NCBI GenBank assembly: GCA_023511455.1
Contig: JAIMBJ010000026.1
Span: forward strand, 1-51,865
Reading direction: 5' to 3'
From: Bacillota bacterium
GTDB taxonomy: Bacteria > Armatimonadota > HRBIN16
Length of the DNA: 51,865 nt
A program made the position numbers and the translations under genes. This document shows positions 1 through 7,335 of this stretch, piece after piece (positions within the stretch are counted from its first letter, which is position 1; each line of letters starts with the position of its first letter). Under the pieces are notes generated by a model. It did not search any database. It was given only the letters and a program-made list of their open reading frames with translations, and was not told where the DNA came from.

Positions 1-268
1 CGCACCACCCTCTGGTGTTTGCCACTCCAGTGAGTGGTCACCAGTTCCATCTGCTGAGCATAAGGCTTGTCCAAAAGCCCCCGCGTGGGGTCTACGAACG
101 CCTTCGCTTCCTGCCACAACGCCTCTGTGTCTAAAAAGTGAAGGCATCGTGCGCGGGAGAGTGTTGCCCTTCGGGTCGGCATCTGGCTGCTTCGGTGCAG
201 GTGAAGATCTTCTGGGCGGCAATGAGGAAGTGGATGTAGTCTAAATCATCACGTTTAGGTGGGTTCAT
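1..268 (-). pseudogene. Broken DDE-type transposase remnant, cut by window edge
   Basis: Reading leftwards from ATG at 268, the frame gives 45 residues beginning MNPPKRDDLDYIHFLIAAQ and ending at TAG (131-133). The next frame then continues from about 131 to the window edge with DTEALWQEAKAFVDPTRGLL, DKPYAQQMEL and THWSGKHQRVV. From memory of the family, these are consecutive parts of one IS4/IS701-like transposase N-terminus, so a frame-shifting lesion lies near 131-142. The join GLL-DKPY also seems to lack the short stretch that usually carries the first catalytic Asp. A weak AGAGGAG ribosome site lies upstream. The exact IS family is not assigned. Confidence 0.75.
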
Positions 269-312
269 TTTCTACAGCGCTCCTCTTGGCCGGCTTGCGT
301 TTTCATGTTATC

Positions 313-342
313 ATAGTATTGTCGATAGGGGTTCGCGGTCAA
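313..342 (-). promoter_or_regulatory. Possible transposase promoter at the IS end
   Basis: On the minus strand, TTGACC (342-337) is followed after 18 bp by TACTAT (318-313), a fair match to a sigma-70 promoter. The -35 box overlaps the inner edge of the terminal repeat and points at the transposase start at 268, a common arrangement in insertion sequences. Boxes were judged by eye only. Confidence 0.35.
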
Positions 343-356
343 CTGCGTAACTCCTA
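340..356. repeat. Terminal inverted repeat of the IS remnant
   Basis: CAACTGCGTAACTCCTA here is identical over 17/17 bases to the right end of the miniature element at 7193-7209, and 16/17 to the reverse complement of its left end at 7015-7031. It sits about 70 bp upstream of the transposase start, where an IS end is expected. The gene at 412 begins only 55 bp beyond it. Confidence 0.75.
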
Positions 357-3991: not shown

Positions 3992-6991
3992 CTACCCTTT
4001 CACCACGCCGATAGGACGCAGACGGGCGACCTTGCGGGAGATACCCACGCCTTCACACACGTCTACCACGTTTGCCACGTCCTTGTAGGCGTAAGAAGCC
4101 TCTTCTGCCAGTGTGGCTTTGTTCTGGGCGCGCACGTAGATGCCTTTCTCCGCCAGCTCCTGGGCGATGTTGCGACCCTGCGCCTCACGCATCGCGCCAT
4201 GCCGGCTCATCATGCGTCCCGCGCCGTGACAGGTGGAGCCAAAGGTCTCACGCATAGCGGTTACCGTGCCCACCAGTATGAAGGAGTACCGCCCCATGTC
4301 GCCCGGAATCAGCACCGGTTGACCCACATGGCGATACACCTCTGGCACAGCGGGGTGTCCGGGACCGAAGGCGCGAGTGGCTCCCTTGCGGTGCACGCAT
4401 ACCGCCTTGACTTTGCCGTTTATCTCGTGTTCCTCTATCTTGGCGATGTTGTGTGCCACGTCGTATATCTGATGCATACCCAGGTCCTGCGGCTTGCTGC
4501 CGAATACCTTTGCAAAGGCCTGCCGCACCCAGTGCGCAATTGCCTGGCGGTTTGCCCAGGCGAAGTTCGCCGCGCACGCCATTGCCGTCAGGTAGTCCTC
4601 GCCTTCTTCAGAGGTAATGGGGGCGCAGGCGAGCTGGCGGTCGGGCAGTTCGATGCCGTACTTCTTCTGCGCTTTTTGCATGACGTCCAGATAGTCATCG
4701 CAGGTCTGGTGTCCAAAGCCACGCGAGCCGGTGTGTATCATCACCGTAATCTGTCCCACCTGAGTGATGCCGAAGGCCTCGGCGACTTTGGCGTCGTAGA
4801 TTTCGTCCACCACCTGTATCTCTAGGAAGTGGTTGCCGCCGCCCAGTGTGCCCAGCTGCGTCTTTCCCCGCTCGATGGCGCGATTGGAGATGTTGGACGG
4901 CTCGGGCGGAAGCAGTCCGGTGAGGGTGGTGCTTTGCTCGCTGCGCTCGATGTCCTCCTCCCAGCCGTAGCCGTGTTCGATCATCCAGATGGCGCCTTTG
5001 CGCATCACCTCGCGCAGCTCCTGCGGGTTGACCTTGATCAACCCCTCGCCCTTCAGCCCTGCGGGAACATCGCGGAAAATCTGGTCCACCAGCTCCTTAA
5101 TGCGCGGCTGTACCTCATCCATCGTCAGGTCGGTTCGCAACATGCGGACCCCACAGTTCGAGACCACGAAACCATTCGCCACGAAGTTATGGTCAGGATG
5201 CATTACAGTCAGGTCATAGACCTCTTTGACATCCTGTACGGGTGTAATGCGGGCAATGCTGTCCCACACCATGCCGCTGGATTCAATTCCCGCAGTTGCC
5301 TCCTTGAGGTATTCTGGGAAGGTGGGAAACTGCTTGGGCACTCGAGGTGTTCGGTTCGGGTTTTCGTAGATGCTGCGCTCAATAAACCGCTGGCTGACGC
5401 CGAGCGGTTGCAGGTTTTCGGTAATCTCTTGCAGAGTTTTGCCCTGATTGTGCATCCGCAGCGCGGTGAGGGATGCCTGCTGACGGGCTCTGACTACCTG
5501 AATTTTACGCTTTACGTACTGTGCTGCCGCGTTTGCCAATGCTCGGCGCGCGCGATTATACTCGAAACCAACCTGTGACCATAATCGCAATAGGTTTTCG
5601 GGGTCATTGCGGATAAGGAGTTTGAACCGCACGGAAACGTCCCCTTGTTCATTGACCTGTTCTACTTCCTCACGTAGGGGATGTACTTCTATTTCGAACT
5701 CGCGAAGCATGTTCGCTATCTGCAGAAGGAACCGTCTGCCGCTTTCCGCCTGGGGTGGTCTCTTGCTCATCGAAAGCGTGGGATACTGGAAGTGATGTAC
5801 GTGTCCCGGCAGGGGGGCAGGAGCATTCATCTCAGCGCCAAAGAGCGCTGCGAGGAATAGCCGTTTCTGCCACCTGGGCGCGCGCTGCAGCCACGACGGC
5901 ACCTCGTATGCCTGCTCTGTCTTTTTGCCAACAGGTGCCCCCAGGGCTGCCATGACCAGCGCAAAACCCGTGCTAACCACCTTAAAAGCGCATTCCTGGT
6001 ATTCAAAGTGTACCTTCTTGTGGGGTTTCACAATGGAGTGTTGGCGCAACCTGCGGTAGACCTGCGAGGGAGTGATACCGACACGCTTTAGGTCGCGGCG
6101 GATGTCCTCCAGGTCCGCTTCTTTTCCGTAAAACCAGGTGACGCCTTTCCCGGTTTTGCCTTCGAAATAGAGCGTGCCATCACCCATCAAGTAGCCTAGC
6201 AGCTTGATGAAGAAGGGTGTGGCGGGCGAGTCGTATCGCAATGGAAGAATCTTCAGTCGTCTCAAGTATCTGAGTATTTGCTCGCCACGGTTTCCCGCCT
6301 CCACGTCACCCAGGTCCTTTAAGCGATGGATGATGTCCTCTTCATCAAGAATAACCTCGTCACCGGGCTGTTCGTAGGGAACCCCTTCGAAAGGATACAG
6401 GGCGATGACGTCTCCAACCTTCAGCTCCTGCAAGGGCTTCATTCCGCTCGGGGTTAAGAAGGGGTGTTCCACGCTTGCCCGAATCACATCCCCTGCCTCT
6501 GTACAAATCTCATAGACAGGGTTATCCGCGCGCGCTTTGATGTAAGCGCCGATACTTGCTGTGTCGGACGATTTTCGGGAGAACACCTGGCAGATAATCG
6601 TCTCTTGGTGCCACCGGTGCTGCAGGTCGCCAATGGTCAGGGTGTAGCCATGCTCGCAGAGAACTCGTGTTTCCTCAGTTAAGCAGTTGATGTCAAAGCC
6701 AACCCCTCCAGGTGACACTACACCCTCTTTGATATCCATTGCCGCTACTCCACCAATGGGGAAGCCGTAGCCCCAGTGGATGTCGGGCATGGCGATGGAG
6801 TAGCTCTGAATACCCGGCAGGGTGGCGACGTTTGCTACCTGCTCCGGAGACTGGTCCTGAACAATCTGTTCGACTAACTGCGCGCTGGCGTAGATGATGC
6901 CGTCCACGCGCATGCCGTTTTTGTAGTCCTTGGGAATGCGCCAGCGATAGGTATCAATCCGCTCTAATTTGCCCTCCCACTTTTCGCTCAT
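3992..6991 (-). CDS. rtcB: RtcB 3'-phosphate RNA ligase precursor with intein
   Basis: This encodes a 999-residue precursor: 102 residues of N-extein, a 510-residue intein and 387 residues of C-extein, giving a 489-residue ligase, normal for RtcB. RtcB joins RNA 2',3'-cyclic or 3'-phosphate ends to 5'-OH using GTP and Mn2+, acting in tRNA splicing or RNA repair. The C-extein has GGGNHF, HTGSRGFGHQ and STCHGAGR; His922 of the precursor corresponds to the guanylylated histidine. ATG 6991 is chosen because GGAGG lies 9 nt upstream; a GTG at 7000 would overlap that site. The gene runs convergent with the HEAT-repeat gene. No archease gene is adjacent. The miniature element at 7015-7209 lies immediately upstream. 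Confidence 0.95.
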   Translation of the reverse strand: MSEKWEGKLERIDTYRWRIPKDYKNGMRVDGIIYASAQLVEQIVQDQSPEQVANVATLPGIQSYSIAMPDIHWGYGFPIGGVAAMDIKEGVVSPGGVGFDINCLTEETRVLCEHGYTLTIGDLQHRWHQETIICQVFSRKSSDTASIGAYIKARADNPVYEICTEAGDVIRASVEHPFLTPSGMKPLQELKVGDVIALYPFEGVPYEQPGDEVILDEEDIIHRLKDLGDVEAGNRGEQILRYLRRLKILPLRYDSPATPFFIKLLGYLMGDGTLYFEGKTGKGVTWFYGKEADLEDIRRDLKRVGITPSQVYRRLRQHSIVKPHKKVHFEYQECAFKVVSTGFALVMAALGAPVGKKTEQAYEVPSWLQRAPRWQKRLFLAALFGAEMNAPAPLPGHVHHFQYPTLSMSKRPPQAESGRRFLLQIANMLREFEIEVHPLREEVEQVNEQGDVSVRFKLLIRNDPENLLRLWSQVGFEYNRARRALANAAAQYVKRKIQVVRARQQASLTALRMHNQGKTLQEITENLQPLGVSQRFIERSIYENPNRTPRVPKQFPTFPEYLKEATAGIESSGMVWDSIARITPVQDVKEVYDLTVMHPDHNFVANGFVVSNCGVRMLRTDLTMDEVQPRIKELVDQIFRDVPAGLKGEGLIKVNPQELREVMRKGAIWMIEHGYGWEEDIERSEQSTTLTGLLPPEPSNISNRAIERGKTQLGTLGGGNHFLEIQVVDEIYDAKVAEAFGITQVGQITVMIHTGSRGFGHQTCDDYLDVMQKAQKKYGIELPDRQLACAPITSEEGEDYLTAMACAANFAWANRQAIAHWVRQAFAKVFGSKPQDLGMHQIYDVAHNIAKIEEHEINGKVKAVCVHRKGATRAFGPGHPAVPEVYRHVGQPVLIPGDMGRYSFILVGTVTAMRETFGSTCHGAGRMMSRHGAMREAQGRNIAQELAEKGIYVRAQNKATLAEEASYAYKDVANVVDVCEGVGISRKVARLRPIGVVKG
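5156..6685 (-). other. Intein within RtcB, LAGLIDADG-type
   Basis: The intein begins with Cys103 (CLTEETRVL, block A), directly after extein GFDIN, and ends VVSN directly before extein CGVRML. Block B is recognisable as SVEHPFLTP and block F as the region up to HNFVANGF. A dodecapeptide homing-endonuclease motif, LLGYLMGDG, has its Asp at residue 271 of the precursor; a second one, FLAALFGAEM, has Glu in the acidic position. The penultimate residue is Ser rather than the usual His. The reading frame is open throughout, so splicing competence is likely; endonuclease activity is uncertain. Confidence 0.9.
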
Positions 6992-7009
6992 ACCACTCAC
7001 CTCCCCAAC

Positions 7010-7214
7010 AGCATTAGGAATTACGCAGTTGAAAGACTATCCGGAAGTTTCCGATGTAACACGCCATCTTCTGTCATTCTGAGCGGAGCGAAGAATCTCG
7101 TTTACCGGGCTGAGATGCTTCGCTTTCGCTCAGCATGACAGGAAAGTGTCTTTGCAATCACTGAAAAAGCGTGACTCGTTAGATGTTCATCGCAACTGCG
7201 TAACTCCTAAGCAT
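7010..7214. mobile_element. 195-bp miniature inverted-repeat element with target duplication
   Basis: The element spans 7015-7209. Its ends are TAGGAATTACGCAGTTG (7015-7031) and CAACTGCGTAACTCCTA (7193-7209), complementary at 16 of 17 positions. It is flanked by a perfect 5-bp direct repeat, AGCAT (7010-7014 and 7210-7214), the expected target-site duplication. There is no coding sequence inside, so it is non-autonomous. The right end is identical to the IS end at 340-356, which points to that transposase type as the mover. It fills the 344-bp gap upstream of rtcB. Confidence 0.85.
7071..7141. repeat. REP-like imperfect palindrome inside the miniature element
   Basis: CTGTCATTCTGAGCGGAGCG (7071-7090) pairs with the region ending CGCTCAGCATGACAG (7126-7140). 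The arms are about 30 nt with few mismatches and a short loop, so RNA from either strand would fold into a long hairpin. The TCATTCTGAGCG/AGCGAAG wording resembles dispersed palindromes common in bacterial genomes (recognised from memory). Confidence 0.75.
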
Positions 7215-7335
7215 ATTATACTCCAAGCTGGACAAAGTTTATGGAGCAATGGAAAGCAACGCGTCTGTGGACATAAAATAGTGAAGGGCACAGAGCGTTT
7301 CCTCTGTACCCTCCCCATCTGCCGCTGGAGCGGTG

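Follow-up and report, generated by a model that had tools for sequence, protein, structure and literature searches.

Several described systems come close to the arrangement at this locus. QMITE2 of Coxiella burnetii is a MITE of ~190 bp with a repetitive extragenic palindrome (REP), the REP itself being a target of IS1111 (PMC10969869), while GTAG-15 of Anabaena and CGTC-1 of Halothiobacillus are REP dimers within longer palindromes (PMC3733652). Other REPs are targeted by members of IS110 and IS3 (PMC1525189). The REPs tagged at one end with an unpaired CGTC, often in the form TGTC and also as CCTC, constitute a superfamily with a stem of 8-9 bp that begins with A-T and T-A pairs, a loop of 4-5 and tails most of which, according to the same paper, fit CCA; they are without a known transposase, and Di Nocera et al. 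left open what moves them, suggesting a broad spectrum of transposases (PMC3733652).

The locus studied here lies in a window of 51,865 nucleotides (the whole stretch of DNA that was analysed) from genome G000. We consider it very likely that a MITE with IS701-type ends was mobilised in trans, carried a captured REP-like dimer inside it, and landed in the leader of rtcB. For a MITE-borne REP that serves another IS as target, QMITE2 is a precedent; of more interest here is the presence of the dimer in at least three MITE types. The two cases, likened by description only, have in common the REP inside the MITE and the REP targeted by another IS, whereas the palindrome of QMITE2 is GTAG-type and the one described here is CGTC/TGTC-like, accompanied by IS701-type ends and common to at least three MITE families. 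GTAG-15 and CGTC-1 resemble the present case in that REP dimers are regularly embedded in longer repeated inverted sequence; however, the surrounding sequence was not assigned there to a MITE of any named IS family, nor were empty sites demonstrated.

That the element at rtcB (Table 1) is a genuine IS701-type MITE is well supported, and as a MITE it is ordinary. The preliminary description had reported a 195-bp element with 17-bp terminal inverted repeats (TIRs) matching at 16 of 17 positions and AGCAT on both sides, and direct reading agrees with it base for base (TAGGAATTACGCAGTTG against the reverse complement of TAGGAGTTACGCAGTTG); the internal REP-like palindrome, given there as 70 bp, is present and spans 69 bp (7072-7140). 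An ORF scan found no frame of at least 80 aa inside the element, and there were no Rfam matches within the window. Folded as single-strand DNA, the sequence reaches z = -7.05, with none of 200 shuffles as stable. The usual marks of a MITE come together here: TIRs, a target site duplication (TSD) of 5 (sometimes 6) bp, small size without a transposase gene, dispersed copies and empty sites, and an autonomous-type element that has these ends and is present in G000 as contig-end halves.

Table 1. Features of the MITE at rtcB and its surroundings in the window.
Feature	Position	Strand	Basis
IS701-family element, 5' end, cut by contig edge; TIR at 340-356	1-356	-	end and protein match
rtcB with in-frame intein	3992-6991	-	Pfam RtcB 581.7 bits, Intein_splicing 64 bits
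rtcB Shine-Dalgarno GGGGAGGTG	6998-7006	-	conserved in most congeners
Left target site duplication AGCAT	7010-7014		direct reading; AGCAT occurs once in the best-matching empty sites of congeners
MITE, 195 bp, non-coding, IS701-type ends	7015-7209	+	ends, copies, flanks
Left TIR TAGGAATTACGCAGTTG	7015-7031	+	direct reading
109-bp core (MITE positions 48-156) common to second MITE family with different ends, 83-85% identity	7062-7170	+	L015, L016, L017, L022
REP-like unit 1 with a stem of the TTC/GAA type and an outward-facing TGTC tag	7072-7099	+	covariation, folds
REP-like unit 2 with a stem of the TGC/GCA type and an outward-facing TGTC tag; second half of the 69-bp palindrome begun by unit 1	7112-7140	-	covariation, folds
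Right TIR TAGGAGTTACGCAGTTG, equal to left end of IS701 element	7193-7209	-	direct reading and end comparison
Right target site duplication AGCAT	7210-7214		direct reading
Probable rtcB -10 box TATAAT, beside insertion point	7215-7220	-	inferred; conserved in most congeners

Sequence searches of G000 (3.85 Mb, 73 contigs) returned about 20 copies of the MITE, ~17 of them near-full-length; the full-length relatives are 95, 91, 84 and 76-79% identical, and many partial ones accompany them. Exact TSDs flank seven of the 17 two-ended copies, with 5 bp in five (AGCAT in the window, CTTAT at L008, ACCTG at L013, GCAGT at L019, GTGGA at L023) and 6 bp in two (TGAAGT at L006, AGCGGT at L010). As a control, the left flank of each copy was paired with the right flanks of the others; none of these 272 pairs matched exactly and nine matched with at most one mismatch, a level reached by 12 of the 17 true pairs. 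In the remaining five copies no target duplication can be recognised. The pre-insertion sequences of ten sites were reconstructed and searched for in nine congeners. At rtcB, the MITE is absent in all eight congeners with inspected junction alignments: the sequence of G006 is exactly CACCTCCCCAACAGCATATTATACTCCA, in which AGCAT occurs once, small changes distinguish G003, G002, G009, G008 and G005, and divergence is greater in G001 and G004. Thus, the insertion at rtcB is recent. Full copies of this MITE were found only in G000 and G007 in the genus search. Further empty sites were seen for L013 and L006 in G007 and for L002 in G003, while the L023 site is occupied in G007, where the flanking matches overlap by 5 bases, so that the family must have moved both before and after G000 and G007 split. 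Same ends, different 5-bp flanks and empty sites in relatives had been proposed as the check on this element; all were recovered, and a complete MITE adjoining rtcB is borne out by its ends, copies, TSDs and empty sites. One copy (L258, G000:C28:47400-47798) sits inside an apparent CRISPR repeat bordering an array, with the TIR coming directly after GCAACGCCTGCCCCGACCAATAGGGGA.

The ends tie the MITE to the IS701 family. Several G000 contigs have the exact 17-bp end TAGGAGTTACGCAGTTG at their edges, and IS701-family halves at contig ends have the TIR TAGGAG/CTTACGCAGTTG, with TAGGAGTTACGCAGTTG bounding the protein start and TAGGACTTACGCAGTTG the C-terminal half. The N-terminal halves are those at C6 and C26, the C-terminal ones those at C1 and C24, and all match model NF049921 (transpos_IS701_2); the scores of 83 bits (N-terminal half at C6) and 99 bits (C-terminal half, C1 and C24) fall below the cut-off of 250, as fragments would be expected to. 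The common flank CGGAG at the contig ends of C20 and C1 would fit a single IS copy flanked by a 5-bp TSD. A complete relative of 1139 bp in a Methanosarcina record (L185), flanked by TTAAT on both sides and with one end exactly matching the 17-bp TIR and the other differing at two positions, encodes a transposase scoring 392 bits against the same cut-off of 250. Congener G003 has several 1.1-kb IS701 copies with the same ends, and a target duplication is absent at most of its complete copies. The MITE and the IS701-family elements of NF049921, which span many phyla, are thus alike in their 17-bp ends and mostly 5-bp duplications, but the MITE has no coding capacity and its interior is unrelated except for the TIR. 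We found nothing relevant in the literature on IS701 together with MITEs.

IS701-family (DDE) transposases acting in trans would recognise the end TAGGAGTTACGCAGTTG and generate TSDs of 5 (sometimes 6) bp, as we infer from the shared ends. The assembly of G000 contains no complete gene for an IS701 transposase, its copies being cut off by contig ends. The two N-terminal pieces of greatest length (the window fragment and G000:C6:1-375) have in common a short deletion that removes the first DDE aspartate region; both copies are probably inactive. The active mobiliser in G000 is therefore only putative and could be another IS701 copy. In a genome scan, the exact TIR was found in many phyla including archaea (L125-L204), and in distant phyla it bounds MITE families of 80-200 bp with 5-bp duplications in most hosts. 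Among 48 small TIR-bounded elements at 45 loci in other phyla, 22 have an exact 5-bp TSD, as against six of 2256 control pairs, and none of the 48 contains the palindrome.

Inside, the MITE contains no IS sequence and instead a dimer of REP-like hairpin units, probably captured within the genus. The palindrome consists of 28 nt, a 12-nt spacer and 29 nt, the inverted units reading TGTC-ATTCTGAGCG..CGAAGAAT-CTC and TGTC-ATGCTGAGCG..CGAAGCAT-CTC with the tags outward. Among 83 distinct units from G000 and related genomes, the variable stem positions are TT/AA in 50, TG/CA in 27 and CC/GG in four, and 97.6% of the units are complementary in the stem compared to 49% after shuffling; such covarying positions identify the single unit as a conserved hairpin. 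It folds into 5 bp, a 2x2 internal mismatch and 2 bp with a loop of 3-4; the first pair is A-T and the second T-A in most units and C-G in the CC type. The TGTC/CGTC tag, found in all pattern matches by construction, is unpaired in the folds. In these traits the units resemble the CGTC-tagged REPs of Di Nocera et al. 2013 (PMC3733652), with which they have in common the C/TGTC tag outside the stem, the A-T first and usually T-A second pair, the short loop, a 3-nt tail, frequent inverted dimers including heterodimers, and no associated Y1 transposase. Their tail is CTC, however, where that of CGTC REPs is mostly CCA, and their stem of 5 + 2 pairs is interrupted by the 2x2 mismatch, so that they are candidate members of that superfamily; this bacterial group is not listed in that paper, and a literature search on the palindrome sequence found nothing relevant. 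REPs associated with a RAYT (REPtrons) have a Y1 gene in the genome, and G000 has no match to the Y1 transposase (PF01797), with weak or no matches in the genus. A RAYT/Y1 transposase was rejected as mover of the palindrome for want of one in G000.

The distribution of the units reaches far beyond the element at rtcB. Strict counts gave 71 in G000, 296 in G002, 226 in G006 and 269 in G008, 10-29 in the other congeners that have any (about 10 each in G003 and G005), none in G004, and a few in other genera of the phylum. TIR-bounded elements hold 42 of the 71 units of G000, of which 32 are in the family of the rtcB MITE, nine in a second family and one in a hybrid; for the other 29 no enclosing element was recognised, and most of them form short mosaic clusters. 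Elements of the second family end in GAGGGTGTTCGA and are flanked by duplications of 9 bp (AGTCGGTCA in L016, AGCTGGTCG in L022). The hybrid (L390, G000:C36:27950-28600) is a chimera with an IS701-type end on one side and a GAGGGTGTTCGA-type end on the other, joined via the palindrome core. At many sampled loci of G002 (L301-L329) the dimer is flanked by a third inverted-repeat element, whose ends are close to CACACGTGATTATTTGGAT, with two-ended copies at L309 and L316 in G002 and at L104 in G009; no convincing target duplication was found for this family, for which only the ends are claimed. Sampled units of G006 and G008 form mosaic clusters without ends of these MITE families. The palindrome thus predates the rtcB-type MITE and is more widely distributed, and within a single genus no fewer than three different MITE types contain a REP-like dimer that has no transposase of its own.

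The palindrome also seems to be a landing site. The TGC-type unit is interrupted at one fixed point by an IS (TGTCATGCTGA / IS / GAGCG..AGCGAAGCATCTC) at 12 junctions with GA on both sides, nine of them at the G000 contig ends C2, C14, C17, C30, C31, C35, C49, C50 and C56 (L093-L101) and the others at C9, C28 and C31 (L050, L258, L057). By the look of these junctions the interrupting IS would be site-specific with the palindrome as its target. IS110 was tried as its family and set aside: PF02371 has no match in G000, and the body of the IS is unassembled.

How the dimer came to sit between such different ends can be read in several ways. As a tentative extension, to which we give somewhat more than a one-in-three hearing, the dimer may be an exchangeable cargo core packaged between several unrelated transposon ends that were swapped by recombination in the core; the end types would be the IS701 type with 5-bp duplications, the GAGGGTGTTCGA type with 9-bp duplications, and the third type in a congener. 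Slightly less probable, and on balance unlikely, is that the palindrome itself is mobile, the REP-like dimer having been moved by a RAYT-type (Y1) transposase into pre-existing MITEs of which it is a mere neighbour. The far wider spread of the units, their presence in several unrelated MITE families and alone, and the elements of other phyla with the same TIR and no palindrome would all fit such insertions, but the lack of PF01797 in G000 does not, nearly all examined MITE copies hold at least part of the palindrome at the same place, and the 109-bp core common with the second family exceeds the palindrome. The same placement and the extended core suggest one capture with later end exchange and not repeated insertion.

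The preliminary description had suggested that MITEs of this kind account for how such palindromes spread, and this holds in part. With 42 of 71 units of G000 inside MITEs, the rtcB-type MITE could be taken as the main route of spread in the genus, yet this is improbable: G002, G006 and G008 have their 226-296 units, and G003 and G005 theirs, without it, and 29 units of G000 are free. It is largely refuted as a general account and true only as one route, given that a palindrome wider in distribution than the MITE, with free units besides, makes the MITE one vehicle among several and not the origin. On the other hand, at least two other unrelated MITE families carry units, and the general idea gains more from them than from a single element. 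Finally, an ancestral intergenic regulatory or terminator palindrome with transposon-like ends by chance would suit a strongly folding sequence in a 5' untranslated region, but dispersed copies, identical ends, TSDs and clean empty sites leave it next to no probability, and the empty sites, such as that of G006 with its one AGCAT, already refute it.

Returning to a MITE mobilised in trans with its captured dimer, the element lies between the -10 box motif of rtcB and the Shine-Dalgarno, and the gene upstream of rtcB ends in a terminator-like hairpin (7314-7283). The intein within rtcB is an Intein_splicing domain at protein residues 112-612. A consensus promoter scan did not report an rtcB promoter with the -10 box of Table 1; both the identity of the promoter and the effect of the insertion on rtcB are thus put forward from the sequence context. 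From its position, at about +1, the transcript should begin near the MITE end, and the leader of the rtcB mRNA, otherwise about 20 nt long, would become a folded one of ~200 nt. The predicted folded leader has -86.5 kcal/mol for 255 nt (z = -2.9), and the MITE probably lengthens the rtcB mRNA leader.

With a CGTC/TGTC-like dimer inside MITEs of at least three end types in one genus, hitch-hiking becomes testable by strain comparison; the IS701-type family has empty sites and TSDs here, and one chimeric copy joins two families. If the dimer is indeed exchangeable cargo, this would answer how CGTC-type REPs without their own transposase disperse. The insertion at rtcB, for which the unoccupied allele is known in the genus, offers a natural test of a folded 195-nt leader.
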